DNA of 64,000 bases, from assembly GCA_026874595.1 (NCBI GenBank), contig CM049316.1, forward strand, positions 18,811,839 to 18,875,838, read 5' to 3'. A program made the translations under genes and the position numbers. This document shows, piece after piece, positions 1 to 64,000 of the stretch. How positions within the stretch are numbered: the first letter of the stretch is position 1; each line of letters starts with the position of its first letter. The notes under the pieces are model-generated. The model ran no database searches and was not told the origin of the DNA. It worked only from the letters and a program-made list of their open reading frames with translations. The stretch is from Sipunculus nudus. Taxonomy: Eukaryota > Annelida > Sipuncula > Golfingiida > Sipunculidae.

Positions 1-13
1 GTAAAACAGTGTG

Positions 14-19
14 ACGGGA
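14..19 (+). other. CENP-B-box-like half site ACGGGA holding the unit's only CpG
   Basis: The mammalian CENP-B box needs TTCG, then A, then CGGG at fixed spacing. In this unit the CGGG half is present (15-18) but the TTCG half is replaced by AAAC (4-7) and the required A is T (12). Only one half matches, so functional CENP-B binding is not expected. The CGGG core is unchanged in nearly every unit; exceptions include GACGAG near 9147, 28061 and 44781, and GACTGG near 63530. Confidence 0.35.
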
Positions 20-152
20 GTGCCAGTAGACTAAAAGATGCCCATTCATCTATCTTTTGATAAAGAATTTATGTGATTTCTGGCTTCCTTTGTGTATATG
101 TTAATGATCTGAGGGTAACATATGTAAATACCACAGGGATCATACAAAGAGG

Positions 153-162
153 GGTAATTACC
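153..162. other. 10-bp perfect palindrome GGTAATTACC (example copy)
   Basis: GGTAATTACC equals its own reverse complement. It is present in about half of all units. The other units carry GGATATTACC, GGATTTTACC or GGAATATTACC, which break the palindrome. It shares TTACC with the longer inverted repeat immediately downstream. Whether a protein binds it is unknown. Confidence 0.85.
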
Positions 163-173
163 TGCACAGGTAA
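158..173. other. Conserved 16-bp inverted repeat at the unit junction (example copy)
   Basis: TTACCTGCACAGGTAA has two perfect 7-bp arms, TTACCTG and CAGGTAA, around a 2-base centre (CA). It recurs at nearly every unit boundary in the window. Exceptions are scattered point changes such as TTATCTG near 2195, CCAGCACAGG near 4562, CAAGTAA near 3386, CCTTCACAGG near 26014, CCTGCGCAGG near 54895 and 55908, and CAGGTTAAAC near 30750, 48314 and 52704. Each arm also resembles an E-box-type CAGGTA site in opposite orientation, as bound by ZEB/Snail-type zinc-finger proteins in animals; that link is only sequence resemblance. Short dyad symmetries are a recurring feature of centromeric satellites. Confidence 0.8.
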
Positions 174-907
174 AACAGTGTGACGGGAGTACCAGTAGAC
201 TAAAAGGTGCCCATTCATCTATCTTTTGATAAAGAATTTATGTGATTTCTGGCTTCCTTTGTGTATATATTAATGATCTGAGGGTAACATATGTAAATAC
301 CACAGGGATCATACAAAGAGGGGTAATTACCTGCACAGGTAAAACAGTGTGACGGGAGTACCAGTAGACTAAAGGTGCCCATTCATCTATCTTTTGATAA
401 AGAATTTATGTGATTTCTGGCTTCCTTTGTGTATATATTAATGATCTGAGGGTAACATATGTAAATACCACAGGGATCATACAAAGAGGGGATATTACCT
501 GCACAGGTAAAACAGTGTGACGGGAGTACCAGTAGACTAAAAGGTTCCCATTCATCTATCTTTTGATAAAGAATTTATGTGATTTCTGGCTTCCTTTGTG
601 TATATATTAATGATCTGAGGGTAACATATGTAAATACCACAGGGATCATACAAAGAGGGGTAATTACCTGCACAGGTAAAACAGTGTGACGGGAGTACCA
701 GTAGACTGAAAGATGCCCATTCATCTATCTTTTGTTAAAGAATTTATGTGATTTCTGTCTTCCTTTGTGTATATATTAATAATCTGAGGGTAACATATGT
801 AAATACCACAGGGATCATACAAAGAGGGGTAATTACCTGCACAGGTAAAACAGTGTGACGGGAGTGCCAGTAGACTAAAAGGTGCCCATTCATCTATCTT
901 TTGATAA

Positions 908-923
908 AGAATTTAAGAATTTA
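908..923. repeat. 8-bp tandem duplication inside a zeta unit
   Basis: AGAATTTA occurs twice in direct succession (908-915 and 916-923), lengthening this unit to 177 bp. I saw it in no other unit, so it is a private event that has not spread by amplification. It probably arose by replication slippage. Confidence 0.9.
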
Positions 924-1866
924 TGTGATTTCTGGCTTCCTTTGTGTATATATTAATGATCTGAGGGTAACATATGTAAATACCACAGGGATCATACAAA
1001 GAGGGGATTTTACCTGCACAGGTAAAACAGTGTGACGGGAGTGCCAGTAGACTAAAAGGTGCCCATTCATCTATCTTTTGATAAAGAATTTATGTGATTT
1101 CTGGCTTCCTTTGTGTATATATTAATGATCTGAGGGTAACATATGTAAATACCACAGGGATCATACAAAGAGGGGATATTACCTGCACAGGTAAAACAGT
1201 GTGACGGGAGTACCAGTAGACTAAAAGATGCCCATTCATCTATCTTTTGATAAAGAATTTATGTGATTTCTGGCTTCCCTTGTGTATATATTAATGATCT
1301 GAGGGTAACATATGTCAATACCACAGGGATCATACAAAGATAGGTAATTACCTGCACAGGTAAAACAGTGTGACGGGAGTACCAGTAGACTAAAAGGTGC
1401 CCATTCATCTATCTTTTGATAAAGAATTTATGTGATTTCTGGCTTCCTTTGTGTATATATTAATGATCTGAGGGTAACAGATGTAAATACCACAGGGATC
1501 ATACAAAGAGGGGATATTACCTGCACAGGTAAAACAGTGTGACGGGAGTGCCAGTAGACTAAAAGATGCCCATTCATCTATCTTTTGATAAAGAATTTAT
1601 GTGATTTCTGGCTTCCTTTGTGTATATATTAATGATCTGAGGGTAACATATGTAAATACCACAGGGATCATACAAAGAGGGGATATTACCTGCACAGGTA
1701 AAACAGTGTGACGGGAATGCCAGTAGACTAAAAGATGCCCATTCATTTATCTTTTGATAAAGAATTTATGTGATTTCTGGCTTTCTTTGTGTATATATTA
1801 ATGATCTGAGGGTAACATATGTAAATACCACAGGGATCATACAAAGAGGGGATATTACCTGCACAG

Positions 1867-3386
1867 GTAAAACAGTGTGACGGGAGTGCCAGTAGACTAA
1901 AAGATGCCCATTCATCTATCTTTTGATAAAGAATTTATGTGATTTCTGGCTTCCTTTGTGTATATGTTAATGATCTGAGGGTAACATATGTAAATACCAC
2001 AGGGATCATACAAAGAGGGGTAATTACCTGCACAGGTAAAACAGTGTGACGGGAGTACCAGTAGACTAAAAGGTGCCCATTCATCTATCTTTTGATAAAG
2101 AATTTATGTGATTTCTGGCTTCCTTTGTGTATATATTAATGATCTGAGGGTAACATATGTAAATACCACAGGGATCATACAAAGAGGGGTAATTATCTGC
2201 ACAGGTAAAACAGTGTGACGGGAGTACCAGTAGACTAAAGGTGCCCATTCATCTATCTTTTGATAAAGAATTTATGTGATTTCTGGCTTCCTTTGTGTAT
2301 ATATTAATGATCTGAGGGTAACATATGTAAATACCACAGGGATCATACAAAGAGGGGATATTACCTGCACAGGTAAAACAGTGTGACGGGAGTACCAGTA
2401 GACTTAAAGGTTCCCATTCATCTATCTTTTGATAAAGAATTTATGTGATTTCTGGCTTCCTTTGTGTATATATTAATGATCTGAGGGTAACATATGTAAA
2501 TACGACAGGGATCATACAAAGAGGGGTAATTACCTGCACAGGTAAAACAATGTGACGGGAGTACCAGTAGACTGAAAGATGCCCATTCATCTATCTTTTG
2601 TTAAAGAATTTATGTGATTTCTGTCTTCCTTTGTGTATATATTAATAATCTGAGGGTAACATATCTAAATACCACAGGGATCATACAAAGAGGGGTAATT
2701 ACCTGCACAGGTAAAACAGTGTGACGGGAGTGCCAGTAGACTAAAAGGTGCCCATTCATCTATCTTTTGATAAAGAATTTATGTGATTTCTGGCTTCCTT
2801 TGTGTATATATTAATGATCTGAGGGTAACATATGTAAATACCACAGGGATCATACAAAGAGGGGATATTACCTGCACAGGTAAAACAGTGTGACGGGAGT
2901 ACCAGTAGACTAAAAGATGCCCATTCATCTATCTTTTGATAAAGAATTTATGTGATTTCTGGCTTCCCTTGTGTATATATTAATGATCTGAGGGTAACAT
3001 ATGTCAGTACCACAGGGATCATACAAAGAGAGGTAATTACCTGCACAGGTAAAAACAGTGTGACGGGAGTACCAGTAGACTAAAAGGTGCCCATTCATCT
3101 ATCTTTTGATAAAGAATTTATGTGATTTCTGGCTTCCTTTGTGTATATATTAATAATCTGAGGGTAACATATGTAAATACCACAGGGATCATACAAAGAG
3201 GGGTAATTACCTGCACAGGTAAAACAGTGTGACGGGAGTACCAGTAGACTAGAGGTGCCCATTCATCTATCTTTTGATAAAGAATTTATGTGATTTCTGG
3301 CTTCCTTTGTGTATATATTAATGATCTGAGGATAACATATGTAAATACTACAGGGATCATACAAAGAGGGAATATTACCTGCACAA
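1867..3386. repeat. Nine-unit variant of the family I higher-order repeat
   Basis: Order: alpha 1867, beta 2036, gamma 2205, delta 2373, epsilon 2542 (with CTGTCTTCC as at 676), eta 2711, theta 2880 (GTCAGTA), beta-like 3049 (170 bp, one extra A), and a gamma variant at 3219 marked by GGATAAC, AATACTA and GGGAATATT. Compared with 1-1866 the zeta unit is missing and the connector differs. Flanking variants shared with the first copy, such as CTGTCTTCC in epsilon, indicate close common descent. Confidence 0.75.
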
Positions 3387-3724
3387 GTAAAACAGTGTGA
3401 CGGGAGTGCCAGTAGACTAAATGGTGCCCATTCATCTATCTTTTGATAAAGAATTTATGTGATTTCTGGCTTCCTTTGTGTATATATTAATGATCTGAGG
3501 GTAACATATGTAAATACCACAGGGATCATACAAAGAGGGGTAATTACCTGCACAGGTAAAACAGTGTGACGGGAGTGCCAGTAGACTAAAAGGTGCCCAT
3601 TCATCTATCTTTTGATAAAGAATTTATGTGATTTCTGGCTTCCTTTGTGTATATATTAATGATCTGAGGGTAACATATGTAAATACCACAGGGATCATAC
3701 AAAGAGGGGATATTACCTGCACAG

Positions 3725-6330
3725 GTAAAACAATGTGACGGGAGTACCAGTAGACTAAAAGATGCCCATTCATCTATCTTTTGATAAAGAATTTATGTGA
3801 TTTCTGGCTTCCTTTGTGTATATATTAATGATCTGAGGGTAACATATGTAAATACCACAGGGATCATACAAAGAGGGGTAATTACCTGCACAGGTAAAAC
3901 AGTGTGACGGGAGTACCAGTAGACTAAAAGGTGCCCATTCATCTATCTTTTGATAAAGAATTTATGTGATTTCTGGCTTCCTTTGTGTATATATTAATGA
4001 TCTGAGGGGAACATATGTAAATACCACAGGGATCATACAAAGAGGGGGTATTACCTGCACAGGTAAAACAGTGTGACGGGAGTGCCAGTAGACTAAAAGG
4101 TGCCCATTCATCTATCTTTTGATAAAGAATTTATGTGATTTCTGGCTTCCTTTGTGTATATATTAATGATCTGAGGGTAACATATGTAAATACCACAGGG
4201 ATCATACAAAGAGGGGATATTACCTGCACAGGTAAAACAGTGTGACGGGAGTACCAGTAGACTAAAAGGTGCCCATTTATCTATCTTTTGATAAAGAATT
4301 TATGTGATTTCTGGCTTCCTTTGTGTATATATTAATGATCTGAGGGTAACATATGTAAATACCACAGGGATCATACAAAGAGGGGATATTACCTGCACAG
4401 GTAAAACAGTGTGACGGGAGTGCCAGTAGACTAAAAGATGCCCATTCATCTATCTTTTGATAAAGAATTTATGTGATTTCTGGCTTCCTTTGTGTATATA
4501 TTAATGATCTGAGGGTATCATATGTAAATACCACAGGGATCATACAAAGAGGGGTAATTACCAGCACAGGTAAAACAGTGTGACGGGAGTACCAGTAGAC
4601 TAAAAGGTGCCCATTCATCTATCTTTTGTTAAAGAATTTATGTGATTTCTGGCTTCCTTTGTGTATATATTAATGATCTGAGGGTAACATATGTAATTAC
4701 CATATGGATCATACAAAAAGGGGATATTACCTGCACAGGTAAAACAGTGTGACGGGAGTGCCAGTAGACTAAAAGATGCCCATTCATCTATCTTTTGATA
4801 AAGAATTTATGTGATTTCTGGCTTCCTTTGTGTATATGTTAATGATCTGAGGGTAACATATGTAAATACCACAGGGATCATACACAGAGGGGATATTACC
4901 TGCACAGGTAAAACAGTGTGACGGGAGTGCCAGTAGACTAAAAGATGCCCATTCATCTATCTTTTTATAAAGAATTTATGTGATTTCTGGCTTCCTTTGT
5001 GTATATATTAATGATCTGAGGGTAACATATGTAAATACCACAGGGCTCATACAAAGAGGGGTAATTACCTGCACAGGTAAAACAGTGTGACGGGAGTACC
5101 AGTAGACTAAAAGGTGCCCATTCATCTATCTTTTGATAAAGAATTTATGTGATTTCTGGCTTCCTTTGTGTATATATTAATGATCTGAGGGTAACATATG
5201 TAAATACCACAGGGATCATACAAAGAGGGGATATTACCTGCACAGGTAAAACAGTGTGACGGGAGTGCCAGTAGACTAAAAGATGCCCATTCATCTATCT
5301 TTTGATAAAGAATTTATGTGATTTCTGGCTTCCTTTGTGTATATATTAATGATCTGAGGGTAACATATTTAAATACCACAGGGATCATACAAAGAGGGGT
5401 AATTACCTGCACAGGTAAAACAGTGTGACGGGAGTGCCAGTAGACTAAAAGGTGCCCATTCATCTATCTTTTGATAAAGAATTTATGTGAGTTCTGGCTT
5501 CCTTTCTGTATATATTAATGATCTGAGGGTAACATATGTAAATACCACAGGGATCATACAAAGAGGGGATATTACCTACACAGGTAAAACAGTTTGACGG
5601 GAGTGCCAGTAGACTAAAAGGTGCCCATTCATCTATCTTTTGATAAAGAATTTATGTGATTTCTGGCTTCCTTTGTGTATATATTAATGATCTGAGGGTA
5701 ACATATGTAAATACCACAGGGATCATACAAAGAGAGGATATTACCTGCACAGGTAAAACAGTGTGACGGGAGTACCAGTAGACTAAAAGGTTCCCATTCA
5801 TCTATCTTTTGATAAAGAATTTATGTGATTTCTGGCTTCCTTTGTGTATATATTAATGATCTGAGGGTAACATATGTAAATACCACAGGGATCATACAAA
5901 GAGGGGATATTACCTGCACAGGTAAAACAGTGTGACGGGAGTGCCAGTAGACTAAAAGATGCCCATTCGTCTATCTTTTGATAAAGAATTTATGTGATTT
6001 CTGGCTTCCTTTGTGTATATATTAATGATCTGAGGGTAACATATGTAAATACCACAGGGATCATACAAAGAGGGGATATTACATGCACAGGTAAAACAGT
6101 GTGACGGGAGTGCCAGTAGACTAAAAGGTGCCCATTCATTTATCTTTTGATAAAGAATTTATGCGATTTCTGGCTTCCTTTGTGTATATATTAATGATCT
6201 GAGGGTAACATATGTAAATACCACAGGGATCATACAAAGAGGGGATATTACCTGCACAGGTAAAACAGTGTGACGGGAGTGCCAGTAGACTAAAAGATGC
6301 CCATTCATCTATCTTTTGATAAAGAATTTA
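3725..6330. repeat. Segmental duplication, copy 1 (5745-bp spacing)
   Basis: Markers in this stretch recur 5745 bp downstream, in the same order and at the same offset: ACAATG unit start 3725/9470, GGGTATCAT 4515/10260, GGGCTCAT 5041/10786, TTCGTC 5961/11706, CATTTATC 6131/11876. The offset equals 34 units minus 1 bp. Private differences in this copy include CCAGCACAGG near 4562, TACACAGAGG near 4883 and CCTACACAGG near 5576. Confidence 0.85.
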
Positions 6331-9106: not shown

Positions 9107-9469
9107 CAAAGAGCGGATATTACCTGCACAGGTAAAACAGTGTGACGAGAGTGCCAGTAGACTAAAAGATGCCCATTCATCTATCTTTTGATAAAGAATT
9201 TATGTGATTTCTGGCTTCCTTTGTGTATATATTAATGATCTGAGGGTAACATATGTAAATACCACAGGGATCATACAAAGAGGGGATATTACCTGCACAG
9301 GTAAAACAGTGTGACGGGAGTGCCAGTAGACTAAAAGATGCCCATTCATCTATCTTTTGATAAAGAATTTATGTGATTTCTGGCTTCCTTTGTGTATATA
9401 TTAATGATCTGAGGGTAACATATGTAAATACCACAGGGATCATACAAAGAGGGGATATTACCTGCACAG

Positions 9470-12677: not shown

Positions 12678-14873
12678 GTAAAACAGTGTGACGGGAGTGC
12701 CAGTAGACTAAAAGATGCCCATTCATCTATCTTTTGATAAAGAATTTATGTGATTTCTGGCTTCCTTTGTGTATATGTTAATGATCTGAGGGTAACATAT
12801 GTAAATACCACAGGGATCATACAAAGAGGGGTAATTACCTGCACAGGTAAAACAGTGTGACGGGAGTACCAGTAGACTAAAAGGTGCCCATTCATCTATC
12901 TTTTGATAAAGAATTTATGTGATTTCTGGCTTCCTTTGTGTATATATTAATGTTCTGAGGGTAACATATGTAAATACCACAGGGATCATACAAAGAGGGG
13001 TAATTACCTGCACAGGTAAAACAGTGTGACGGGAGTACCAGTAGACTAAAGGTGCCCATTCATCTATCTTTTGATAAAGAATTTATGTGATTTCTGGCTT
13101 CCTTTGTGTATATATTAATGATCTGAGGGTAACATATGTAAATACCACAGGGATCATACAAAGAGGGGATATTACCTGCACAGGTAAAACAGTGTGACGG
13201 GAGTACCAGTAGACTAAAAGGTTCCCATTCATCTATCTTTTGATAAAGAATTTATGTGATTTCTGGCTTCCTTTGTGTATATATAAATGATCTGAGGGTA
13301 ACATATGTAAATACCACAGGGATCATACAAAGAGGGGTAATTACCTGCACAGGTAAAACAGTGTGACGGGAGTACCAGTAGACTGAAAGATGCCCATTCA
13401 TCTATCTTTTGTTAAAGAATTTATGTGATTTCTGGCTTCCTTTGTGTATATATTAATAATCTGAGGGTAACATATGTAAATACCACAGGGATCATACGAA
13501 GAGGGGTAATTACCTGCACAGGTAAAACAGTGTGACGGGAGTGCCAGTAGACTAAAAGGTGCCCATTCATCTATCTTTTGATAAAGAATTTATGTGATTT
13601 CTGGCTTCCTTTGTGTATATATTAATGATCTGAGGGTAACATATGTAAATACCACAGGGATCATACAAAGAGGGGATTTTACCTGCACAGGTAAAACAGT
13701 GTGACGGGAGTGCCAGTAGACTAAAAGGTGCCCATTCATCTATCTTTTGATAAAGAATTTATGTGATTTCTGGCTTCCTTTGTGTATATATTAATGATCT
13801 GAGGGTAACATATGTAAATACCACAGGGATCATACAAAGAGGGGATATTACCTGCACAGGTAAAACAGTGTGACGGGAGTACCAGTAGACTAAAAGATGC
13901 CCATTCATCTATCTTTTGATAAAGAATTTATGTGATTTCTGGCTTCCCTTGTGTATATATTAATGATCTGAGGGTAACATATGTCAATACCACAGGGATC
14001 ATACAAAGAGAGGTAATTACCTGCACAGGTAAAACAGTGTGACGGGAGTACCAGTAGACTAAAAGGTGACCATTCATTTATCTTTTGATAAAGAATTTAT
14101 GTGATTTCTGGCTTCCTTTGTGTATATATTAATGATCTGAGGGTAACATATGTAAATACCACAGGGATCATACAAAGAGGGGATATTACCTGCACAGGTA
14201 AAACAGTGTGACGGGAGTGCCAGTAGACTAAAAGATGCCCATTCATCTATCTTTTGATAAAGAATTTATGTGATTTCTGGCTTCCTTTGTGTATATATTA
14301 ATGATCTGAGGGTAACATATGTAAATATCACAGGGATCATACAAAGAGGGGTAATTACCTGCACAGGTAAAACAGTGTGACGGGAGTACCAGTAGACTAA
14401 AAGGTGCCCATTCATCTATCTTTTGATAAAGAATTTATGTGATTTCTGGCTTCCTTTGTGTATATATTAATGATCTGAGGGTAACAGATGTAAATACCAC
14501 AGGGATCATACAAAGAGGGGATATTACCTGCACAGGTAAAACAATGTGACGGGAGTGCCAGTAGACTAAAAGATGCCCATTCATCTATCTTTTGATAAAG
14601 AATTTATGTGATTTCTGGCTTCCTTTGTGTATATATTAATGATCTGAGGGTAACATATGTAAATACCACAGGGATCATACAAAGAGGGGATATTACCTGC
14701 ACAGGTAAAACAGTGCGACGGGAATGCCAGTAGACTAAAAGATGCCCATTCATTTATCTTTTGATAAAGAATTTATGTGATTTCTGGCTTCCTTTGTGTA
14801 TATATTAATGATCTGAGGGTAACATATGTAAATACCACAGGGATCATACAAAGAGGGGATATTACCTGCACAG
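12678..14873. repeat. Complete 13-unit higher-order repeat, alpha to xi
   Basis: Unit starts: alpha 12678, beta 12847, gamma 13016, delta 13184, epsilon 13353, zeta 13522, eta 13691, theta 13860, kappa 14029 (GGTGACCATTCATTTATC), lambda 14198, mu 14367 (GTAACAGATG), nu 14536 (ACAATG) and xi 14705 (GGGAATGCC). The length is 13 x 169 minus the single-base deletion of gamma. I use it as the model for the fullest family I HOR in the window. Confidence 0.85.
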
Positions 14874-17800
14874 GTAAAACAGTGTGACGGGAGTGCCAGT
14901 AGACTAAAAGGTGCCCATTCATCTATCTTTTGATAAAGAATTTATGTGATTTCTGGCTTCCTTTGTGTATATATTAATGATCTGAGGGTAACATATGTAA
15001 ATACCACAGGGATCATACAAAGAGGGGATTTTACCTGCACAGGTAAAACAGTGTGACGGGAGTGCCAGTAGACTAAAAGGTGCCCATTCATCTATCTTTT
15101 GATAAAGAATTTATGTGATTTCTGGCTTCCTTTGTGTATATATTAATGATCTGAGGGTAACATATGTAAATACCACAGGGATCATACAAAGAGGGGATAT
15201 TACCTGCACAGGTAAAACAGTGTGACGGGAGTACCAGTAGACTAAAAGATGCCCATTCATCTATCTTTTGATAAAGAATTTATGTGATTTCTGGCTTCCC
15301 TTGTGTATATATTAATGATCTGAGGGTAACATATGTCAATACCACAGGGATCATACAAAGAGAGGTAATTACCTGCACAGGTAAAACAGTGTGACGGGAG
15401 TACCAGTAGACTAAAAGGTGCCCATTCATCTATCTTTTGATAAAGAATTTATGTGATTTCTGGCTTCCTTTGTGTATATATTAATGATCTGAGGGTAACA
15501 TATGTAAATACCACAGGGATCGTACAAAGAGGGGTAATTACCTGCACAGGTAAAACAGTGTGACGGGAGTACCAGTAGACTAAAGGTGCCCATTCATCTA
15601 TCTTTTGATAAAGAATTTATGTGATTTCTGGCTTCCTTTGTGTATATATTAATGATCTGAGGATAACAGATGTAAATACCACAGGGATCATACAAAGAGG
15701 GGATATTACCTGCACAGGTAAAACAATGTGACGGGAGTGCCAGTAGACTAAAAGATGCCCATTCATCTATCTTTTGATAAAGAATTTATGTGATTTCTGG
15801 CTTCCTTTGTGTATATATTAATGATCTGAGGGTAACATATGTAAATACCACAGGGATCATACAAAGAGGGGATATTACCTGCACAGGTAAAACAGTGTGA
15901 CGGGAATGCCAGTAGACTAAAAGATGCCCATTCATTTATCTTTTGATAAAGAATTTATGTGATTTCTGGCTTCCTTTGTGTATATATTAATGATCTGAGG
16001 GTAACATATGTAAATACCACAGGGATCATACAAAGAGGGGATATTACCTGCACAGGTAAAACAGTGTGACGGGAGTGCCAGTAGACTAAAAGATGCCCAT
16101 TCTTCTATCTTTTGATAAAGAATTTATGTGATTTCTGGCTTCCTTTTTGTATATGTTAATGATCTGAGGGTAACATATGTAAATACCACAGGGATCATAC
16201 AAAGAGGGGTAATTACCTGCACAGGTAAAACAGTGTGACGGGAGTACCAGTAGACTAAAAGGTGCCCATTCATCTATCTTTTGATAAAGAATTTATGTGA
16301 TTTCTGGCTTCCTTTGTGTATATATTAATGTTCTGAGGGTAACATATGTAAATACCACAGGGATCATACAAAGAGGGGTAATTACCTGCACAGGTAAAAC
16401 AGTGTGACGGGAGTACCAGTAGACTAAAGGTGCCCATTCATCTATCTTTTGATAAAGAATTTATGTGATTTCTGGCTTCCTTTGTGTATATATTAATGAT
16501 CTGAGGGTAACATATGTAAATACCACAGGGATCATACAAAGAGGGGATATTACCTGCACAGGTAAAACAGTGTGACGGGAGTACCAGTAGACTAAAAGGT
16601 TCCCATTCAGCTATCTTTTGATAAAGAATTTATGTGATTTCTGGCTTCCTTTGTGTATATATTAATGATCTGAGGGTAACATATGTAAATACCACAGGGA
16701 TCATACAAAGAGGGGTAATTACCTGCACAGGTAAAACAGTGTGACGGGAGTACCAGTAGACTGAAAGATGCCCATTCATCTATCTTTTGTTAAAGAATTT
16801 ATGTGATTTCTGGCTTCCTTTGTGTATATATTAATAATCTGAGGGTAACATATGTAAATACCACAGGGATCATACAAAGAGGGGTAATTACCTGCACAGG
16901 TAAAACAGTGTGACGGGAGTGCCAGTAGACTAAAAGGTGCCCATTCATCTATCTTTTGATAAAGAATTTATGTGATTTCTGGCTTCCTTTGTGTATATAT
17001 TAATGATCTGAGGGTAACATATGTAAATACCACAGGGATCATACAAAGAGGGGATTTTACCTGCACAGGTAAAACAGTGTGACGGGAGTGCCAGTAGACT
17101 AAAAGGTGCCCATTCATCTATCTTTTGATAAAGAATTTATGTGATTTCTGGCTTCCTTTGTGTATATATTAATGATCTGAGGGTAACATATGTAAATACC
17201 ACAGGGATCATACAAAGAGGGGATATTACCTGCACAGGTAAAACAGTGTGACGGGAGTACCAGTAGACTAAAAGATGCCCATTCATCTATCTTTTGATAA
17301 AGAATTTATGTGATTTCTGGCTTCCCTTGTGTATATATTAATGATCTGAGGGTAACATATGTCAATACCACAGGGATCATACAAAGAGAGGTAATTACCT
17401 GCACAGGTAAAACAGTGTGACGGGAGTACCAGTAGACTAAAAGGTGCCCATTCATCTATCTTTTGATAAAGAATTTATGTGATTTCTGGCTTCCTTTGTG
17501 TATATATTAATGATCTGAGGGTAACATATGTAAATACCACAGGGATCATACAAAGAGGGGTAATTACCTGCACAGGTAAAACAGTGTGACGGGAGTACCA
17601 GTAGACTAAAGGTGCCCATTCATCTATCTTTTGATAAAGAATTTATGTGATTTCTGGCTTCCTTTGTGTATATATTAATGATCTGAGGATAACATATGTA
17701 AATACTACAGGGATCATACAAAGAGGGAATATTACCTGCACAGGTAAAACAGTGTGACGGGAGTACCAGTAGACTAAAAGGTGCCCATTCATCTATCTTT

Positions 17801-18856
17801 TGATAAAGAATTTATGTGATTTCTGGCTTCCTTTGTGTATATATTAATGATCTGAGGGTAACATATGTAAATACCACAGGGATCATACAAAGAGGGGTAA
17901 TTACCTGCACAGGTAAAACAGTGTGACGGGAGTACCAGTAGACTAAAAGGTGACCATTAATTTATCTTTTGATAAAGAATTTATGTGATTTCTGGCTTCC
18001 TTTGTGTATATATTAATGATCTGAGGGTAACATATGTAAATACCACAGGGATCATACAAAGAGGGGATATTACCTGCACAGGTAAAACAGTGTGACGGGA
18101 GTGCCAGTAGACTAAAAGATGCCCATTCATCTATCTTTTGATAAAGAATTTATGTGATTTCTGGCTTCCTTTGTGTATATATTAATGATCTGAGGGTAAC
18201 ATATGTAAATACCACAGGGATCATACAAAGAGGGGTAATTACCTGCACAGGTAAAACAGTGTGACGGGAGTACCAGTAGACTAAAAGGTGCCCATTCATC
18301 TATCTTTTGATAAAGAATTTATGTGATTTCTGGCTTCCTTTGTGTATATATTAATGATCTGAGGGTAACAGATGTAAATACCACAGGGATCATACAAAGA
18401 GGGGATATTACCTGCACAGGTAAAACAGTGTGACGGGAGTACCAGTAGACTAAAAGGTGCCCATTAATTTATCTTTTGATAAAGAATTTATGTGATTTCT
18501 GGCTTCCTTTGTGTATATATTAATGATCTGAGGGTAACATATGTAAATACCACAGGGATCATACAAAGAGGGGATATTACCTGCACAGGTAAAACAGTGT
18601 GACGGGAGTGCCAGTAGACTAAAAGATGCCCATTCATCTATCTTTTGATAAAGAATTTATGTGATTTCTGGCTTCCTTTGTGTATATATTAATGATCTGA
18701 GGGTAACATATGTAAATACCACAGGGATCATACAAAGAGGGGTAATTACCTGCACAGGTAAAACAGTGTGACGGGAGTACCAGTAGACTAAAAGGTGCCC
18801 ATTCATCTATCTTTTGATAAAGAATTTATGTGATTTCTGGCTTCCTTTGTGTATAT
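14874..18856. repeat. Near-identical segmental duplication, copy 1 (5744-bp spacing)
   Basis: This 3.98-kb stretch matches 20618-24600 unit for unit. Shared private markers at the same offset include CATTCTTCTATC (near 16100 and 21844), CCTTTTTGTATATG, AATGTTCTG, CATTCAGCTATC (near 16607 and 22351), TGACCATTAA (17951/23695) and TGCCCATTAA (18458/24202). By eye I noticed only about four base differences, one being GGGATCGTAC near 15521 here. The stretch covers about 23.5 units. Confidence 0.9.
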
Positions 18857-18926
18857 GTTAATGATCTGAGGGTAACATATGTAAATACCACAGGGATCAT
18901 ACAAAGAGGGGTAATTACCTGCACAG
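18758..18926. repeat. Hybrid unit, mu-type left half and alpha-type right half
   Basis: The left part has A at the variable site and AGGTG, matching the mu unit in the duplicate copy (24502). The right part has TATGTTAATG and ends GGTAATTACC, matching alpha (for example 25009). The unit is exactly 169 bp. It sits where the two long duplicates part, and skipping from mu to alpha removes exactly three units that are present at 24502-25009. This fits an in-register unequal exchange inside the unit. Confidence 0.7.
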
Positions 18927-20617
18927 GTAAAACAGTGTGACGGGAGTACCAGTAGACTAAAAGGTGCCCATTCATCTATCTTTTGATAAAGAATTTATGT
19001 GATTTCTGGCTTCCTTTGTGTATATATTAATGATCTGAGGGTAACATATGTAAATACCACAGGGATCATGCAAAGAGGGGTAATTACCTGCACAGGTAAA
19101 ACAGTGTGACGGGAGTACCAGTAGACTAAAGGTGCCCATTCATCTATCTTTTGATAAAGAATTTATGTGATTTCTGGCTTCCTTTGTGTATATATTAATG
19201 ATCTGAGGGTAACATATGTAAATACCACAGGGATCATACAAAGAGGGGATATTACCTGCACAGGTAAAACAGTGTGACGGGAGTACCAGTAGACTAAAAG
19301 GTTCCCATTCATCTATCTTTTGATAAAGAATTTATGTGATTTCTGGCTTCCTTTGTGTATATATTAATGATCTGAGGGTAACATATGTAAATACCACAGG
19401 GATCATACAAAGAGGGGTAATTACCTGCACAGGTAAAACAGTGTGACGGGGAGTACCAGTAGACTGAAAGATGCCCATTCATCTATCTTTTGTTAAAGAA
19501 TTTATGTGATTTCTGGCTTCCTTTGTGTATATATTAATAATCTGAGGGTAACATATGTAAATACCACAGGGATCATACAAAGAGGGGTAATTACCTGCAC
19601 AGGTAAAACAGTGTGACGGGAGTGCCAGTAGACTAAAAGGTGCCCATTCATCTATCTTTTGATAAAGAATTTATGTGATTTCTGGCTTCCTTTGTGTATA
19701 TATTAATGATCTGAGGGTAACATATGTAAATACCACAGGGATCATACAAAGAGGGGATTTTACCTGCACAGGTAAAACAGTGTGACGGGAGTGCCAGTAG
19801 ACTAAAAGGTGCCCATTCATCTATCTTTTGATAAAGAATTTATGTGATTTCTGGCTTCCTTTGTGTATATATTAATGATCTGAGGGTAACATATGTAAAT
19901 ACCACAGGGATCATACAAAGAGGGGATATTACCTGCACAGGTAAAACAGTGTGACGGGAGTACCAGTAGACTAAAAGATGCCCATTCATCTATCTTTTGA
20001 TAAAGAATTTATGTGATTTCTGGCTTCCCTTGTGTATATATTAATGATCTGAGGGTAACATATGTCAATACCACAGGGATCATACAAAGAGAGGTAATTA
20101 CCTGCACAGGTAAAACAGTGTGACGGGAGTACCAGTAGACTAAAAGGTGCCCATTCATCTATCTTTTGATAAAGAATTTATGTGATTTCTGGCTTCCTTT
20201 GTGTATATATTAATGATCTGAGGGTAACATATGTAAATACCACAGGGATCATACAAAGAGGGGGTAATTACCTGCACAGGTAAAACAGTGTGACGGGAGT
20301 ACCAGTAGACTAAAAGGTTCCCATTCATCTATCTTTTGATAAAGAATTTATGTGATTTCTGGCTTCCTTTGTGTATATATTAATGATCTGAGGGTAACAT
20401 ATGTAAATACCACAGGGATCATACAAAGAGGGGTAATTACCTGCACAGGTAAAACAGTGTGACGGGAGTACCAGTAGACTGAAAGATGCCCATTCATCTA
20501 TCTTTTGTTAAAGAATTTATGTGATTTCTGGCTTCCTTTGTGTATATATTAATAATCTGAGGGTAACATATGTAAATACCACAGGGATCATACAAAGAGG
20601 GGTAATTACCTGCACAG

Positions 20618-23600
20618 GTAAAACAGTGTGACGGGAGTGCCAGTAGACTAAAAGGTGCCCATTCATCTATCTTTTGATAAAGAATTTATGTGATTTCTGG
20701 CTTCCTTTGTGTATATATTAATGATCTGAGGGTAACATATGTAAATACCACAGGGATCATACAAAGAGGGGATTTTACCTGCACAGGTAAAACAGTGTGA
20801 CGGGAGTGCCAGTAGACTAAAAGGTGCCCATTCATCTATCTTTTGATAAAGAATTTATGTGATTTCTGGCTTCCTTTGTGTATATATTAATGATCTGAGG
20901 GTAACATATGTAAATACCACAGGGATCATACAAAGAGGGGATATTACCTGCACAGGTAAAACAGTGTGACGGGAGTACCAGTAGACTAAAAGATGCCCAT
21001 TCATCTATCTTTTGATAAAGAATTTATGTGATTTCTGGCTTCCCTTGTGTATATATTAATGATCTGAGGGTAACATATGTCAATACCACAGGGATCATAC
21101 AAAGAGAGGTAATTACCTGCACAGGTAAAACAGTGTGACGGGAGTACCAGTAGACTAAAAGGTGCCCATTCATCTATCTTTTGATAAAGAATTTATGTGA
21201 TTTCTGGCTTCCTTTGTGTATATATTAATGATCTGAGGGTAACATATGTAAATACCACAGGGATCATACAAAGAGGGGTAATTACCTGCACAGGTAAAAC
21301 AGTGTGACGGGAGTACCAGTAGACTAAAGGTGCCCATTCATCTATCTTTTGATAAAGAATTTATGTGATTTCTGGCTTCCTTTGTGTATATATTAATGAT
21401 CTGAGGATAACAGATGTAAATACCACAGGGATCATACAAAGAGGGGATATTACCTGCACAGGTAAAACAATGTGACGGGAGTGCCAGTAGACTAAAAGAT
21501 GCCCATTCATCTATCTTTTGATAAAGAATTTATGTGATTTCTGGCTTCCTTTGTGTATATATTAATGATCTGAGGGTAACATATGTAAATACCACAGGGA
21601 TCATACAAAGAGGGGATATCACCTGCACAGGTAAAACAGTGTGACGGGAATGCCAGTAGACTAAAAGATGCCCATTCATTTATCTTTTGATAAAGAATTT
21701 ATGTGATTTCTGGCTTCCTTTGTGTATATATTAATGATCTGAGGGTAACATATGTAAATACCACAGGGATCATACAAAGAGGGGATATTACCTGCACAGG
21801 TAAAACAGTGTGACGGGAGTGCCAGTAGACTAAAAGATGCCCATTCTTCTATCTTTTGATAAAGAATTTATGTGATTTCTGGCTTCCTTTTTGTATATGT
21901 TAATGATCTGAGGGTAACATATGTAAATACCACAGGGATCATACAAAGAGGGGTAATTACCTGCACAGGTAAAACAGTGTGACGGGAGTACCAGTAGACT
22001 AAAAGGTGCCCATTCATCTATCTTTTGATAAAGAATTTATGTGATTTCTGGCTTCCTTTGTGTATATATTAATGTTCTGAGGGTAACATATGTAAATACC
22101 ACAGGGATCATACAAAGAGGGGTAATTACCTGCACAGGTAAAACAGTGTGACGGGAGTACCAGTAGACTAAAGGTGCCCATTCATCTATCTTTTGATAAA
22201 GAATTTATGTGATTTCTGGCTTCCTTTGTGTATATATTAATGATCTGAGGGTAACATATGTAAATACCACAGGGATCATACAAAGAGGGGATATTACCTG
22301 CACAGGTAAAACAGTGTGACGGGAGTACCAGTAGACTAAAAGGTTCCCATTCAGCTATCTTTTGATAAAGAATTTATGTGATTTCTGGCTTCCTTTGTGT
22401 ATATATTAATGATCTGAGGGTAACATATGTAAATACCACAGGGATCATACAAAGAGGGGTAATTACCTGCACAGGTAAAACAGTGTGACGGGAGTACCAG
22501 TAGACTGAAAGATGCCCATTCATCTATCTTTTGTTAAAGAATTTATGTGATTTCTGGCTTCCTTTGTGTATATATTAATAATCTGAGGGTAACATATGTA
22601 AATACCACAGGGATCATACAAAGAGGGGTAATTACCTGCACAGGTAAAACAGTGTGACGGGAGTGCCAGTAGACTAAAAGGTGCCCATTCATCTATCTTT
22701 TGATAAAGAATTTATGTGATTTCTGGCTTCCTTTGTGTATATATTAATGATCTGAGGGTAACATATGTAAATACCACAGGGATCATACAAAGAGGGGATT
22801 TTACCTGCACAGGTGAAACAGTGTGACGGGAGTGCCAGTAGACTAAAAGGTGCCCATTCATCTATCTTTTGATAAAGAATTTATGTGATTTCTGGCTTCC
22901 TTTGTGTATATATTAATGATCTGAGGGTAACATATGTAAATACCACAGGGATCATACAAAGAGGGGATATTACCTGCACAGGTAAAACAGTGTGACGGGA
23001 GTACCAGTAGACTAAAAGATGCCCATTCATCTATCTTTTGATAAAGAATTTATGTGATTTCTGGCTTCCCTTGTGTATATATTAATGATCTGAGGGTAAC
23101 ATATGTCAATACCACAGGGATCATACAAAGAGAGGTAATTACCTGCACAGGTAAAACAGTGTGACGGGAGTACCAGTAGACTAAAAGGTGCCCATTCATC
23201 TATCTTTTGATAAAGAATTTATGTGATTTCTGGCTTCCTTTGTGTATATATTAATGATCTGAGGGTAACATATGTAAATACCACAGGGATCATACAAAGA
23301 GGGGTAATTACCTGCACAGGTAAAACAGTGTGACGGGAGTACCAGTAGACTAAAGGTGCCCATTCATCTATCTTTTGATAAAGAATTTATGTGATTTCTG
23401 GCTTCCTTTGTGTATATATTAATGATCTGAGGATAACATATGTAAATACTACAGGGATCATACAAAGAGGGAATATTACCTGCACAGGTAAAACAGTGTG
23501 ACGGTAGTACCAGTAGACTAAAAGGTGCCCATTCATCTATCTTTTGATAAAGAATTTATGTGATTTCTGGCTTCCTTTGTGTATATATTAATGATCTGAG

Positions 23601-24600
23601 GGTAACATATGTAAATACCACAGGGATCATACAAAGAGGGGTAATTACCTGCACAGGTAAAACAGTGTGACGGGAGTACCAGTAGACTAAAAGGTGACCA
23701 TTAATTTATCTTTTGATAAAGAATTTATGTGATTTCTGGCTTCCTTTGTGTATATATTAATGATCTGAGGGTAACATATGTAAATACCACAGGGATCATA
23801 CAAAGAGGGGATATTACCTGCACAGGTAAAACAGTGTGACGGGAGTGCCAGTAGACTAAAAGATGCCCATTCATCTATCTTTTGATAAAGAATTTATGTG
23901 ATTTCTGGCTTCCTTTGTGTATATATTAATGATCTGAGGGTAACATATGTAAATACCACAGGGATCATACAAAGAGGGGTAATTACCTGCACAGGTAAAA
24001 CAGTGTGACGGGAGTACCAGTAGACTAAAAGGTGCCCATTCATCTATCTTTTGATAAAGAATTTATGTGATTTCTGGCTTCCTTTGTGTATATATTAATG
24101 ATCTGAGGGTAACAGATGTAAATACCACAGGGATCATACAAAGAGGGGATATTACCTGCACAGGTAAAACAGTGTGACGGGAGTACCAGTAGACTAAAAG
24201 GTGCCCATTAATTTATCTTTTGATAAAGAATTTATGTGATTTCTGGCTTCCTTTGTGTATATATTAATGATCTGAGGGTAACATATGTAAATACCACAGG
24301 GATCATACAAAGAGGGGATATTACCTGCACAGGTAAAACAGTGTGACGGGAGTGCCAGTAGACTAAAAGATGCCCATTCATCTATCTTTTGATAAAGAAT
24401 TTATGTGATTTCTGGCTTCCTTTGTGTATATATTAATGATCTGAGGGTAACATATGTAAATACCACAGGGATCATACAAAGAGGGGTAATTACCTGCACA
24501 GGTAAAACAGTGTGACGGGAGTACCAGTAGACTAAAAGGTGCCCATTCATCTATCTTTTGATAAAGAATTTATGTGATTTCTGGCTTCCTTTGTGTATAT
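20618..24600. repeat. Near-identical segmental duplication, copy 2 (5744-bp spacing)
   Basis: This is the partner of 14874-18856. Private changes here include GATATCACC near 21617, CAGGTGAAAC near 22812 and GACGGTAGTACC near 23502. The unit before this copy is an epsilon unit, whereas copy 1 is preceded by a xi unit, so the left boundary is at the unit start. At the right, copy 2 continues as a mu unit while copy 1 switches to alpha-type sequence. Confidence 0.9.
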
Positions 24601-26020
24601 ATTAATGATCTGAGGGTAACAGATGTAAATACCACAGGGATCATACAAAGAGGGGATATTACCTGCACAGGTAAAACAATGTGACGGGAGTGCCAGTAGA
24701 CTAAAAGATGCCCATTCATCTATCTTTTGATAAAGAATTTATGTGATTTCTGGCTTCCTTTGTGTATATATTAATGATCTGAGGGTAACATATGTAAATA
24801 CCACAGGGATCATACAAAGAGGGGATATTACCTGCACAGGTAAAACAGTGTGACGGGAATGCCAGTAGACTAAAAGATGCCCATTCATTTATCTTTTGAT
24901 GAAGAATTTATGTGATTTCTGGCTTCCTTTGTGTATATATTAATGATCTGAGGGTAACATATGTAAATACCACAGGGATCATACAAAGAGGGGATATTAC
25001 CTGCACAGGTAAAACAGTGTGACGGGAGTGCCAGTAGACTAAAAGATGCCCATTCATCTATCTTTTGATAAAGAATTTATGTGATTTCTGGCTTCCTTTG
25101 TGTATATGTTAATGATCTGAGGGTAACATATGTAAATACCACAGGGATCATACAAAGAGGGGTAATTACCTGCACAGGTAAAACAGTGTGACGGGAGTAC
25201 CAGTAGACTAAAAGGTGCCCATTCATCTATCTTTTGATAAAGAATTTATGTGATTTCTGGCTTCCTTTGTGTATATATTAATGATCTGAGGGTAACATAT
25301 GTAAATACCACAGGGATCATACAAAGAGGGGTAATTACCTGCACAGGTAAAACAGTGTGACGGGAGTACCAGTAGACTAAAGGTGCCCATTCATCTATCT
25401 TTTGATAAAGAATTTATGTGATTTCTGGCTTCCTTTGTGTATATTTAATGATCTGAGGGTAACATATGTAAATACCACAGGGATCATACAAAGAGGGGAT
25501 ATTACCTGCACAGGTAAAACAGTGTGACGGGAGTACCAGTAGACTAAAAGGTTCCCATTCATCTATCTTTTGATAAAGAATTTATGTGATTTCTGGATTC
25601 CTTTGTGTATATATTAATGATCTGAGGGTAACATATGTAAATACCACAGGGATCATACAAAGAGGGGTAATTACCTGCACAGGTAAAACAGTGTGACGGG
25701 AGTACCAGTAGACTGAAAGATGCCCATTCATCTATCTTTTGTTAAAGAATTTATGTGATTTCTGGCTTCCTTTGTGTATATATTAATAATCTGAGGGTAA
25801 CATATGTAAATACCACAGGGATCATACAAAGAGGGGTAATTACCTGCACAGGTAAAACAGTGTGACGGGAGTGCCAGTAGACTAAAAGGTGCCCATTCAT
25901 CTATCTTTTGATAAAGAATTTATGTGATTTCTGGCTTCCTTTGTGTATATATTAATGATCTGAGGGTAACATATGTAAATACCACAGGGATCATACAAAG
26001 AGGGGATTTTACCTTCACAG

Positions 26021-40100: not shown

Positions 40101-43100
40101 AAGAATTTATGTGATTTCTGGCTTCCTTTGTGTATATATTAATGATCTGAGGGTAACATATGTAAATACCACAGGGATCATACAAAGAGGGGTAATTACC
40201 TGCACAGGTAAAACAGTGTGACGGGAGTACCAGTAGACTAAAAGGTGCCCATTCATCTATCTTTTGATAAAGAATTTATGTGATTTCTGGCTTCCTTTGT
40301 GTATATATTAATGATCTGAGGGTAACAGATGTAAATACCACAGGGATAATACCAAGAGGGGATATTACCTGCACAGGTAAAACAATGTGACGGGAGTGCC
40401 AGTAGACTAAAAGATGCCCATTCATCTATCTTTTGATAAAGAATTTATGTGATTTCTGGCTTCCTTTGTGTATATATTAATGATCTGAGGGTAACATATG
40501 TAAATACCACAGGGATCATACAAAGAGGGGATATTACCTGCACAGGTAAAACAGTGTGACGGGAATGCCAGTAGACTAAAAGATGCCCATTCATTTATCT
40601 TTTGATAAAGAATCTATGTGATTTCTGGCTTCCTTTGTGTATATATTAATGATCTGAGGGTAACATATGTAAATACCACAGGGATCATACAAAGAGGGGA
40701 TATTACCTGCACAGGTAAAACAGTGTGACGGGAGTGCCAGTAGACTAAAAGATGCCCATTCATCTATCTTTTGATAAAGAATTTATGTGATTTCTGGCTT
40801 CCTTTGTGTATATGTTAATGATCTGAGGGTAACATATGTAAATACCACAGGGATCATACAAAGAGGGGTAATTACCTGCACAGGTAAAACAGTGTGACGG
40901 GAGTACCAGTAGACTAAAAGGTGCCCATTCATCTATCTTTTGATAAAGAATTTATGTGATTTCTGGCTTCCTTTGTGTATATATTAATGATCTGAGGGTA
41001 ACATATGTAAATACCACAGGGATCATACAAAGAGGGGTAATTACCTGCACAGGTAAAACAGTGTGACGGGAGTACCAGTAGACTAAAGGTGCCCATTCAT
41101 CTATCTTTTGATAAAGAATTTATGTGATTTCTGGCTTCCTTTGTGTATATATTAATGATCTGAGGGTAACATATGTAAATACCACAGGGATCATACAAAG
41201 AGGGGATATTACCTGCACAGGTAAAACAGTGTGACGGGAGTACCAGTAGACTAAAAGGTTCCCATTCATCTATCTTTTGATAAAGAATTTATGTGATTTC
41301 TGGCTTCCTTTGTGTATATATTAATGATCTGAGGGTAACATATGTAAATACCACAGGGATCATACAAAGAGGGGTAATTACCTGCACAGGTAAAACAGTG
41401 TGACGGGAGTACCAGTAGACTGAAAGATGCCCATTCATCTATCTTTTGTTAAAGAATTTATGTGATTTCTGGCTTCCTTTGTGTATATATTAATAATCTG
41501 AGGGTAACATATGTAAATACCACAGGGATCATACAAAGAGGGGTATTTACCTGCACAGGTAAAACAGTGTGACGGGAGTGCCAGTAGACTAAAAGGTGCC
41601 CATTCATCTATCTTTTGATAAAGAATTTATGTGATTTCTGGCTTCCTTTGTGTATATATTAATGATCTGAGGGTAACATATGTAAATACCACAGGGATCA
41701 TACAAAGAGGGGATTTTACCTGCACAGGTAAAACAGTGTGACGGGAGTGCCAGTAGACTAAAAGGTGCCCATTCATCTATCTTTTGATAAAGAATTTATG
41801 TGATTTCTGGCTTCCTTTGTGTATATATTAATGATCTGAGGGTAACATATGTAAATACCACAGGGATCATACAAAGAGGGGATATTACCTGCACAGGTAA
41901 AACAGTGTGACGGGAGTACCAGTAGACTAAAAGATGCCCATTCATCTATCTTTTGATAAAGAATTTATGTGATTTCTGGCTTCCCTTGTGTATATATTAA
42001 TGATCTGAGGGTAACATATGTCAATACCACAGGGATCATACAAAGAGAGGTAATTACCTGCACAGGTAAAACAGTGTGACGGGAGTACCAGTAGACTAAA
42101 AGGTGCCCATTCATCTATCTTTTGATAAAGAATTTATGTGATTTCTGGCTTCCTTTGTGTATATATTAATGATCTGAGGGTAACATATGTAAATACCACA
42201 GGGATCATACAAAGAGGGGTAATTACCTGCACAGGTAAAACAGTGTGACGGGAGTACCAGTAGACTAAAGGTTCCCATTCATCTATCTTTTGATAAAGAA
42301 TTTATGTGATTTCTGGCTTCCTTTGTGTATATATTAATGATCTGAGGATAACATATGTAAATACTACAGGGATCATACAAAGAGGGAATATTACCTGCAC
42401 AGGTAAAACAGTGTGACGGGAGTGCCAGTAGACTAAAAGGTGCCCATTCATCTATCTTTTGATAAAGAATTTATGTGATTTCTGGCTTCCTTTGTGTATA
42501 TATTAATGATCTGAGGGTAACATAAGTAAATACCACAGGGATCATACAAAGAGGGGTAATTACCTGCACAGGTAAAACAGTGTGACGGGAGTACCAGTAG
42601 ACTGAAAGATGCCCATTCATCTATCTTTTGTTAAAGAATTTATGTGATTTCTGGCTTCCTTTGTGTATATATTAATGATCTGATGGTAACATATGTAAAT
42701 ACCACAGGGATCATACAAAGAGTGGTAATTACCTGCACAGGTAAAACAGTGTGACGGGAGTGCCAGTAGACTAAAAGGTGCCCATTCATCTATCTTTTGA
42801 TAAAGAATTTATGTGATTTCTGGCTTCCTTTGTGTATATATTAATGATCTGAGGGTAACATATGTAAATACCACAGGGATCATACAAAGAGGGGATATTA
42901 CCTGCACAGGTAAAACAGTGTGACGGGAGTACCAGTAGACTAAAAGATGCCCATTCATCTATCTTTTGATAAAGAATTTATGTGATTTCTGGCTTCCCTT
43001 GTGTATATATTAATGATCTGAGGGTAACATATGTCAATACCACAGGGATCATACAAAGAGAGGTAATTACCTGCACAGGTAAAACAGTGTGACGGGAGTA

Positions 43101-61400: not shown

Positions 61401-61826
61401 GGCTTCCTTTGTGTATATATTAATGATCTGAGGATAACATATGTAAATACTACAGGGATCATACAAAGAGGGAATATTACCTGCACAGGTAAAACAGTGT
61501 GACGGGAGTGCCAGTAGATTAAAAGGTGCCCATTCATCTATCTTTTGATAAAGAATTTATGTGATTTCTGGCTTCCTTTGTGTATATATTAATGATCTGA
61601 GGGTTACATATGTAAATACCACAGGGATCATACAAAAAGGGGTAATTACCTGCACAGGTAAAACAGTGTGACGGGAGTGCCAGTAGACTAAAAGGTGCCC
61701 ATTCATCTATCTTTTGATAAAGAATTTATATGATTTCTGGCTTCCTTTGTGTATATATTAATGATCTGAGGGTAACATAAGTAAATACCACAGGGATCAT
61801 ACAAAGAGGGGTAATTACCTGCACAG
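54901..61826. repeat. Family I and transition-series block
   Basis: The block has epsilon units (GACTGAAAG) near 56610, 57460, 58480, 59320 and 60000, several CATAAGTA and GAGTGG transition units, and one theta-like unit near 58031 (CTTCCCTTG present, but GTAAATA instead of GTCAATA). The epsilon unit near 57460-57525 has CTGTCTTCC, otherwise found only near 757 and 2621. Markers of family II are absent except the GGGTCAC and TCTTTGGATAAAG units carried in by the 1013-bp duplication. Confidence 0.65.
55407..56250. repeat. 1013-bp tandem duplication, copy 2
   Basis: This is the partner of 54394-55406, followed through its fifth unit (56083, ending GGAATATTACC). It then continues with a plain unit at 56251 (170 bp, one extra A) and a CATAAGTA unit. 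A private GGGTTCATAC change occurs near 55543. Confidence 0.8.
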
Positions 61827-63347
61827 GTAAAACAGTGTGACGGGAGTACCAGTAGACTAAAAGGTGCCCATTCATCTATCTTTTGTTAAAGAATTTATGT
61901 GATTTCTGGCTTCCTTTGTGTATATATTAATGATCTGAGGGTAACATATGTAAATACCATAGGGATCATACAAAAAGGGGATATTACCTGCACAGGTAAA
62001 ACAGTGTGACGGGAGTGCCAGTAGACTAAAAGATGCCCATTCATCTATCTTTTGATAAAGAATTTATGTGATTTCTGGCTTCCTTTGTGTATATGTTAAT
62101 GATCTGAGGGTAACATATGTAAATACCACAGGGATCATACAAAGAGGGGATATTACCTGCACAGGTAAAACAGTGTGACGGGAGTGCCAGTAGACTAAAA
62201 GATGCCCATTCATCTATCTTTTTATAAAGAATTTATGTGATTTCTGGCTTCCTTTGTGTATATATTAATGATCTGAGGGTAACACATGTAAATACCACAG
62301 GGCTCATACAAAGAGGGGTAATTACCTGCACAGGTAAAACAGTGTGACGGGAGTACCAGTAGACTAAAAGGTGCCCATTCATCTATCTTTTGATAAAGAA
62401 TTTATGTGATTTCTGGCTTCCTTTGTGTATATATTAATGATCTGAGGGTAACATATGTAAATACCACAGGGATCATACAAAGAGGGGATATTACCTGCAC
62501 AGGTAAAACAGTGTGACGGGAGTGCCAGTAGACTAAAAGATGCCCATTCATCTATCTTTTGATAAAGAATTTATGTGATTTCTGGCTTCCTTTGTGTATA
62601 TATTAATGATCTGAGGGTAACATATGTAAATACCACAGGGATCATACAAAGAGGGGATATTACCTGCACAGGTAAAACAATGTGACGGGAGTACCAGTAG
62701 ACTAAAAGATGCCCATTGATCTATCTTTTGATAAAGAATTTATGTGATTTCTGGCTTCCTTTGTGTATATATTAATGATCTGAGGGTAACATATGTAAAT
62801 ACCACAGGGATCATACAAAGAGGGGTAATTACCTGCACAGGTAAAACAGTGTGACGGGAGTACCAGTAGACTAAAAGGTGCCCATTCATCTATCTTTTGA
62901 TAAAGAATTTATGTGATTTCTGGCTTCCTTTGTGTATATATTAATGATCTGAGGGGAACATATGTAAATACCACAGGGATCATACAAAGAGGGGATATTA
63001 CCTGCACAGGTAAAACAGTGTGACGGGAGTGCCAGTAGACTAAAAGATGCCCATTCATCTATCTTTTGATAAAGAATTTATGTGAGTTCTGGCTTCCTTT
63101 CTGTATATATTAATGATCTGAGGGTAACATATGTAAATACCACAGGGATCATACAAAGAGGGGATATTACCTGCACAGGTAAAACAGTGTGACGGGAGTG
63201 CCAGTAGACTAAAAGGTGCCCATTCATCTATCTTTTGATAAAGAATTTATGTGATTTCTGGCTTCCTTTGTGTATATATTAATGATCTGAGGGTAACATA
63301 TGTAAATACCACAGGGATCATACAAAGAGGGGATATTACCTGCACAG

Positions 63348-63685
63348 GTAATACAGTGTGACGGGAGTGCCAGTAGACTAAAAGATGCCCATTCATCTAT
63401 CTTTTGATAAAGAATTTATGTGATTTCTGGCTTCCTTTGTGTATATATTAATGGTCTGAGGGTAACATATGTAAATACCACAGGGATCATACAAAGAGGG
63501 GATATTACCTGCACAGGTAAAACAGTGTGACTGGAATGCCAGTAGACTAAAAGATGCCCATATATTTATTTTTTGATAAAGAATTTATGTGATTTCTGGC
63601 TTCCTTTGTGTATATTTTAATGATCTGAGGGTAACATATGTAAATACCACAGGGATCATACAAAGAGGGGATATTACCTGCACAG
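63348..63685. repeat. Two-unit (338-bp) tandem repeat, copy 1
   Basis: The first unit carries AATGGTCTGAG (GGTCTG at 63453). The second carries GGAATGCC and CCCATATATTTATTTTTTG. The pair restarts at 63686 with GGTCTG at 63791, exactly 338 bp on. Private changes in this copy are GTAATACAG near 63348, GACTGGAATG near 63529, which destroys the CpG, and GTATATTTTAATG near 63611. Confidence 0.85.
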
Positions 63686-64000
63686 GTAAAACAGTGTGAC
63701 GGGAGTGCCAGTAGACTAAAAGATGCCCATTCATCTATCTTTTGATAAAGAATTTATGTGATTTCTGGCTTCCTTTGTGTATATATTAATGGTCTGAGGG
63801 TAACATATGTAAATACCACAGGGATCATACAAAGAGGGGATATTACCTGCACAGGTAAAACAGTGTGACGGGAATGCCAGTAGACTAAAAGATGCCCATA
63901 TATTTATTTTTTGATAAAGAATTTATGTGATTTCTGGCTTCCTTTGTGTATATATTAATGATCTGAGGGTAACATATGTAAATACCACAGGGATCATACA
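63686..64000. repeat. Two-unit tandem repeat, copy 2, cut by the window end
   Basis: This is the partner of 63348-63685, with the same AATGGTCTGAG and CCCATATATTTATTTTTTG variants, which I saw nowhere else in the window. The CpG in GACGGG is intact here. The last unit (63855 onward) is cut at 146 bp by the window end, so further dimer copies may follow. Confidence 0.85.

Follow-up and report, generated by a model that had tools for sequence, protein, structure and literature searches.

The 64,000-bp stretch analysed here (C11:18811839-18875838; hereafter the window) lies inside a single satellite array that very probably began as one tandem duplication across the junction between a transposon and local host DNA, near a receptor gene, and then expanded in situ to about 763 units. 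The whole array occupies C11:18762139-18891173 (129,035 bp, 763 units) and the window covers 49.6% of it; the genome that was searched comprises 1.43 Gb in 153 contigs. The sequence-only reading of the window had described it as tandem satellite throughout, and this was borne out: Tandem Repeats Finder reports a single array across all 64,000 bases (positions 1-64000, plus strand) with a period of 169 bp, 378.9 copies and 96% matches, and neither this program nor cutting the sequence into units revealed an interruption. Cutting the window gave 379 pieces, the final one partial, and 333 of the 379 are exactly 169 bp long; over the whole array the figure is 669 of 763. A head-to-tail array of this length, with 763 similar units in the same orientation across 129,035 bp, is a satellite in the ordinary sense. 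With insertion columns excluded, the 763 units fall into 331 distinct types, and the mean pairwise difference between units is 5.38 positions. No gradient of divergence was seen from left to right along the array in bins of which the last held 3 units, one of them cut short. Two units of 242 bp (169 plus 73) are present at C11:18805787 and 18809909, 4,122 bp apart, and were perhaps copied together inside one block.

The unit is a chimera of 87 bp of transposon end and 82 bp of local host DNA. Alignment to dispersed copies, with the boundary read from the sequence, places the transposon-derived part at window positions 32-118 (plus strand), recurring in every unit; it consists of the target TTAA (here TAAA) followed by the first 83 bp of a dispersed element. 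The host-derived part spans positions 119-200 on the same strand, that is, 119-169 plus 1-31 of the next unit. When the array was used as a genome query, all 17 of the scored matches, drawn from 1,481 first-look candidates and containing no copies from the array itself, were dispersed pieces of 84-91 bp with 91-94% identity to the same half of the unit. A query from the right edge of the array returned 44 matches: itself, four array units and at least 39 dispersed copies at 88-92% identity on 13 contigs, most of them ending at query bases 203-211. The number of dispersed copies is a lower bound because this search scored 40 of 3,812 candidates. For the host half, all 150 matches listed of 174 for an 83-bp query fell in the C11 array, with 40 of 175 candidates scored. 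Thus 87 of the 169 bp are homologous to a dispersed transposon and the other 82 bp are host DNA, which places the unit partly, and not entirely, inside the element.

We aligned the element copies from 17 loci, 16 of them distinct since one locus had been fetched twice. Fourteen of the 16 distinct copies open with TTAA and then AG or AA, mostly as AGGTGCCC or AGATGCCC, and in 9 of the 17 loci an inverted end carrying CCCTTTAA or a close variant lies downstream, at about 450-475 bp in six loci, nearer in one and farther in two. By eye, TTAA is present at the inverted end in eight of these nine. On this structure we name the dispersed element as probably MITE-like and of the TTAA type. One element copy has its start flanked by an inverted repeat of 548 bp, 92.5% identical between its arms (L004:815-1362 and 1645-2192).

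That half of the unit is transposon sequence also invites another account, in which the tandem repetition arose within a mobile element that carries internal repeats and the C11 locus is merely an expanded copy. The Tetris TIR-220 repeats (PMC4079207) and the Helentron-borne repeats of bivalves (PMC7492417) provide precedents for such a path. However, the host half is missing from all 17 element loci (16 distinct), where comparison yielded no match beyond 12 bp, and among the 150 matches listed of 174 it is found only in the C11 array. Tandem Repeats Finder detects no tandem repeat in the element portions of the 17 loci, and the element's own TTAA start falls within the unit. We therefore regard an origin from internal repeats as highly improbable, and favor a founding duplication that reached across the edge of the element into the DNA beside it.

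The edges of the array speak directly to this founding event. Within the array, each unit is joined to the next at GGGTAA|CATATG, with the break between positions 118 and 119 (first seen at window positions 113-124, plus strand, and recurring in internal units). Over the whole array 762 such junctions are found within 3 substitutions, 594 of them exact, and one further, more diverged junction lies in a 337-bp gap. At the left edge the array begins exactly at CATATG, preceded by CCCAAT. At the right edge GGGTAA is followed by the element's own continuation, TTTTGG, with no return to CATATG, and inside the array there are 0 copies of this continuation. The breakpoints fused in internal units thus lie exactly at the two array edges, which therefore mark both ends of the segment duplicated at the founding. 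Past the right edge, the element remnant departs from the majority sequence of its family at 3 of 114 sites. This copy of the element is only about 200 bp in all and stops where a second dispersed repeat starts; its other end was not found in a 9.5-kb piece of the flank. The second repeat (L012:about 1284-1700), which abuts or interrupts the founder element, has 40 other matches at 73-86% identity. The right-most unit differs from other units near the junction, and its alleles offer no independent test because conversion from the array could have altered that unit. The reading of both edges and array comes from one assembly, in which no empty or pre-duplication allele was seen.

The DNA beyond the array is that of an ordinary locus. 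About 2.2 kb to the left, on the minus strand, lies a piece of a Toll-like-receptor-type gene (L009:2784-4938, corresponding to C11:18757783-18759937) with Pfam matches to LRR_8 (E 1e-22) and TIR (E 2.2e-17) in two overlapping frames; the gene piece may be broken, spliced or affected by a frame error. The flanks contain 49 open frames of at least 80 residues, seven of which were given to Pfam; two of the seven matched and the remaining five had no Pfam match. Compared with the genome, the left flank, whose unique DNA lies at C11:18.7618-18.7621 Mb, gave one full match, to itself, and one match of 54 bp. Two further repeats were observed to the left of the array, a 15-bp minisatellite of about 60 copies (L013:2-924) and a longer, diverged direct repeat (L013:3557-5232).

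Elsewhere in the same assembly, bacterial-type cytochrome oxidase genes were observed on contigs C60, C61, C62, C66, C72, C74, C75, C89 and C123, with open frames read for C61 and C123. Eight of these contigs carry between them nine cox1 copies whose scores are nearly identical, and among the best 80 loci of a bacterial genome collection the nearest is 58% identical to the C61 copy. These contigs may come from several strains of a symbiont or cobiont not yet described. A short nuclear copy of a piece of animal-type mitochondrial cox1, with one in-frame TGA, is present at C5:67852325-67852477.

Within the array, units have been duplicated in multi-unit blocks. Among 8-unit stretches in the window, 108 of 65,703 pairs differ at no more than 8 columns, with 0 such pairs in each of 20 shuffles of unit order, and across the whole array we identified 60 duplicated diagonal runs above a score of 10, with none in 5 shuffles. 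These runs take in 453 of the 763 units. The longest covers 30 units at a lag of 45 and lies to the left of the window. The next, 23 units long at lag 34 and with a total of 4 differences between its copies, is the largest duplicated block in the window: window units 89-111 (14874-18757) have a second copy 34 units to the right as units 123-145 (20618-24501), both on the plus strand.

The sequence-only reading had proposed that an 8-unit cassette forms the core of nested higher-order repeats of 11, 9 and 13 units. The cassette itself recurs. Taking the copy at 12678-14028 as reference and counting differences across the 1,352 columns of its 8 units with insertions excluded, we find plus-strand copies at 1-1359 (6 differences in match columns, 13 counting insertion columns, with an 8-bp insertion in unit 6), 16056-17406 (5), 18758-20109 (6), 21800-23150 (6), 25009-26358 (6) and 40715-42065 (4), for a total of seven in the window including the reference; one more, with 12 differences, lies to the left of the window. 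The plus-strand block at 1867-2879 is a partial cassette in which only about 6 units match, its per-unit differences being 0, 2, 0, 3, 4 and 1, and then 8 and 7. Over the whole array the cassette ranks with the most frequently repeated 8-unit stretches, with 7 other copies at no more than 12 differences, or 8 if shifted by one unit, but it is not the sole core, as a different stretch beginning at window position 26359 has 9 other copies.

The proposed periods did not hold. In the window, units 11 apart differ on average at 5.17 positions and units 13 apart at 5.33, compared with a mean of 5.36 (sd 0.07) over 200 shuffles; in the whole array the values are 5.21 and 5.38, against 5.38 overall. 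The window value for lag 11 is a little low, near the lowest of the 200 shuffles (5.155), which we take to be due to individual block copies. Lag 34 stands out in the window with a mean difference of 4.79 and is also the best lag in the whole array, where 9.8% of its pairs differ at no more than 1 position, yet no lag is dominant. These profiles rule out a regular higher-order repeat of 11 or 13 units, and the block at 1867, read as a 9-unit repeat, matches the cassette over about 6 units only. The 60 runs are spread over 52 different lags, from 6 to 578, and the array is therefore an irregular mosaic of block duplications and not a regular higher-order repeat like that of alpha satellite; a regular multi-unit period with copies far closer than neighbours was not found among the 763 units. 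What survives of the earlier description is a nesting of duplicated blocks of typed units, and what does not is their regular period.

Could the array or its block pattern be created by the assembly, through false duplication or collapse? Long, near-identical arrays are difficult to assemble. Against an artefact, there is not a single N in the 144,501 bases that were fetched and joined, the array is unbroken with 331 distinct types among its 763 units, and its edges make biological sense. Moreover, a collapse would alter the length of the array and not the origin of its unit. We consider there to be little chance that the pattern is artefactual.

The units preserve their length and register, and variants have been mixed among them. 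All four combinations were found in 51 of 153 pairs of variant sites, and the similarity between units is nearly flat with distance, the mean difference being 5.29 at 6-20 units and 5.50 at 401-700. This near-flat profile points to long-range spreading, unlike simple neighbour-by-neighbour exchange. We envision the following history, in which we infer the order of events, the kind of recombination and the lack of function. A MITE-like, TTAA-type element would have inserted into unique DNA near the Toll-like-receptor-type gene. A single later rearrangement would then have tandemly duplicated a 169-bp segment made up of 82 bp of host DNA and 87 bp of the insertion (TTAA plus the element end), joining GGGTAA in the element interior to CATATG in the host DNA and generating a dimer. 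From this dimer, copying of multi-unit blocks of up to 30 units would have enlarged the array in place to about 763 units, the main route being in-register unequal exchange or replication-based copying, while conversion or exchange may have mixed variants between units. The apparent nested higher-order pattern would be the scar of these block copies. The data on growth fit in-register unequal exchange with conversion, and also fit replication-based or circle-mediated block copying.

We found no sign that the unit is maintained for a function. Rare variants per column number 4.39 and 4.21 in the two halves, and no sub-segment of the unit appears to be under selective constraint. A 16-bp dyad, TTACCTGCACAGGTAA, lies in the host half (positions 158-173, plus strand, and the same place in later units) and is exact in 715 of the approximately 763 units of the whole array; it is not unusually conserved, since lower variability is seen in 11 of 169 windows of the same length. 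A search of window bases 1-4000 for RNA families at the gathering threshold gave no match. Most likely, recombination produced the array as a selfish by-product without function.

The satellite is confined to a single locus as far as its exact copies are concerned. A 27-mer from the host half has 614 exact copies genome-wide, all forward and 0 reverse, and all 614 fall inside the C11 array, between 18762144 and 18890843. This count is of exact copies and the host-half search scored 40 of 175 candidates, such that diverged copies elsewhere could escape both. Since a single array, on one of many large contigs, accounts for every exact copy (614 of 614), we reject a genome-wide satellite.

This distribution bears on the centromeric or pericentromeric role that had been suggested for the satellite. 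Chromosome-specific centromere repeats occur in some animals, and an array specific to C11 might be one: its 169-bp unit is of nucleosome scale, its 129 kb are uninterrupted, and blocks have been duplicated internally. Several observations weigh against this role. The 614 exact copies are restricted to one contig, unlike a satellite that most or all chromosomes share at their centromeres. The array lies 2.2 kb from a receptor-type gene, its left flank matches fully nowhere else, its units show no regular higher-order period, and no segment of the unit looks constrained. In addition, the 64-kb window contains 0 matches to the CENP-B-box core at up to 1 mismatch, where about 1 is expected by chance. 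A gene close by, a left flank that is almost unique and confinement to a single chromosome argue against a classical centromere. The suggested role is therefore without support, and we judge it very unlikely that the array is a chromosome-specific higher-order satellite of this kind. It is similarly doubtful in the extreme that this satellite, which would have grown from a transposon/host junction and still shows its founding event, has become or is becoming a chromosome-specific centromere or other structural domain. Alpha satellite has a unit of about 170 bp and duplicated multi-unit blocks, and its higher-order repeats share both features with the C11 array; the latter differs in having no regular higher-order period, no exact copies shared between chromosomes and, in the window, no CENP-B-box core. 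Large arrays at one locus are also known from the macrosatellites DXZ4 and D4Z4 and from the single-locus Responder, which the C11 array resembles in this respect and not in the size or origin of its unit.

The C11 array instead belongs with the transposon-derived satellites, among which it is notable for its preserved birthplace and for a founder segment that straddles the edge of the element. Satellites made from mobile elements, MITEs among them, are well documented (PMC9659126, PMC12628747, PMC4079207); the MITE-derived ones include Xstir of Xenopus laevis, miDNA4 of X. tropicalis, and HindIII and BIV160 of bivalves (PMC9659126). In the portions of these reports on which we draw, the described routes start from an element's tandem repeats or portions, or from whole elements (PMC9659126, PMC12628747, PMC4079207). 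Like the MITE-derived satellites, the C11 array runs head to tail and probably owes part of its unit to a short, non-autonomous DNA element. Unlike them, half of its unit is host DNA from outside the element, and its exact copies occur at one locus only; theirs are described as deriving from the element interior or inverted ends (PMC9659126). The Tetris / TIR-220 repeats of Drosophila virilis are similarly an emerging satellite tied to a transposon copy, for which unequal crossing-over has been proposed. There, a pre-existing internal tandem repeat expanded into arrays of up to 66 copies (PMC4079207), whereas at C11 a new chimeric unit reached about 763 copies in one place. A text search of the literature with a 20-letter piece of the unit gave no match, and in a literature search that was not exhaustive we found no report of a satellite whose unit combines, half and half, the end of a transposon with flanking host DNA.

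The beginnings of satellites have mostly been inferred from old, dispersed families in which the origin has been erased. The pattern of typed units at C11 resembles a higher-order repeat and yet has formed at one ordinary locus next to a gene, and such a pattern alone is therefore no evidence of a centromere. The C11 array retains both founding breakpoints, the continuation of the founding element and the unique DNA of its flank. This preserved birthplace makes it possible to read how a single-copy junction became about 760 units, and to test the account in relatives that carry the insertion without the array.
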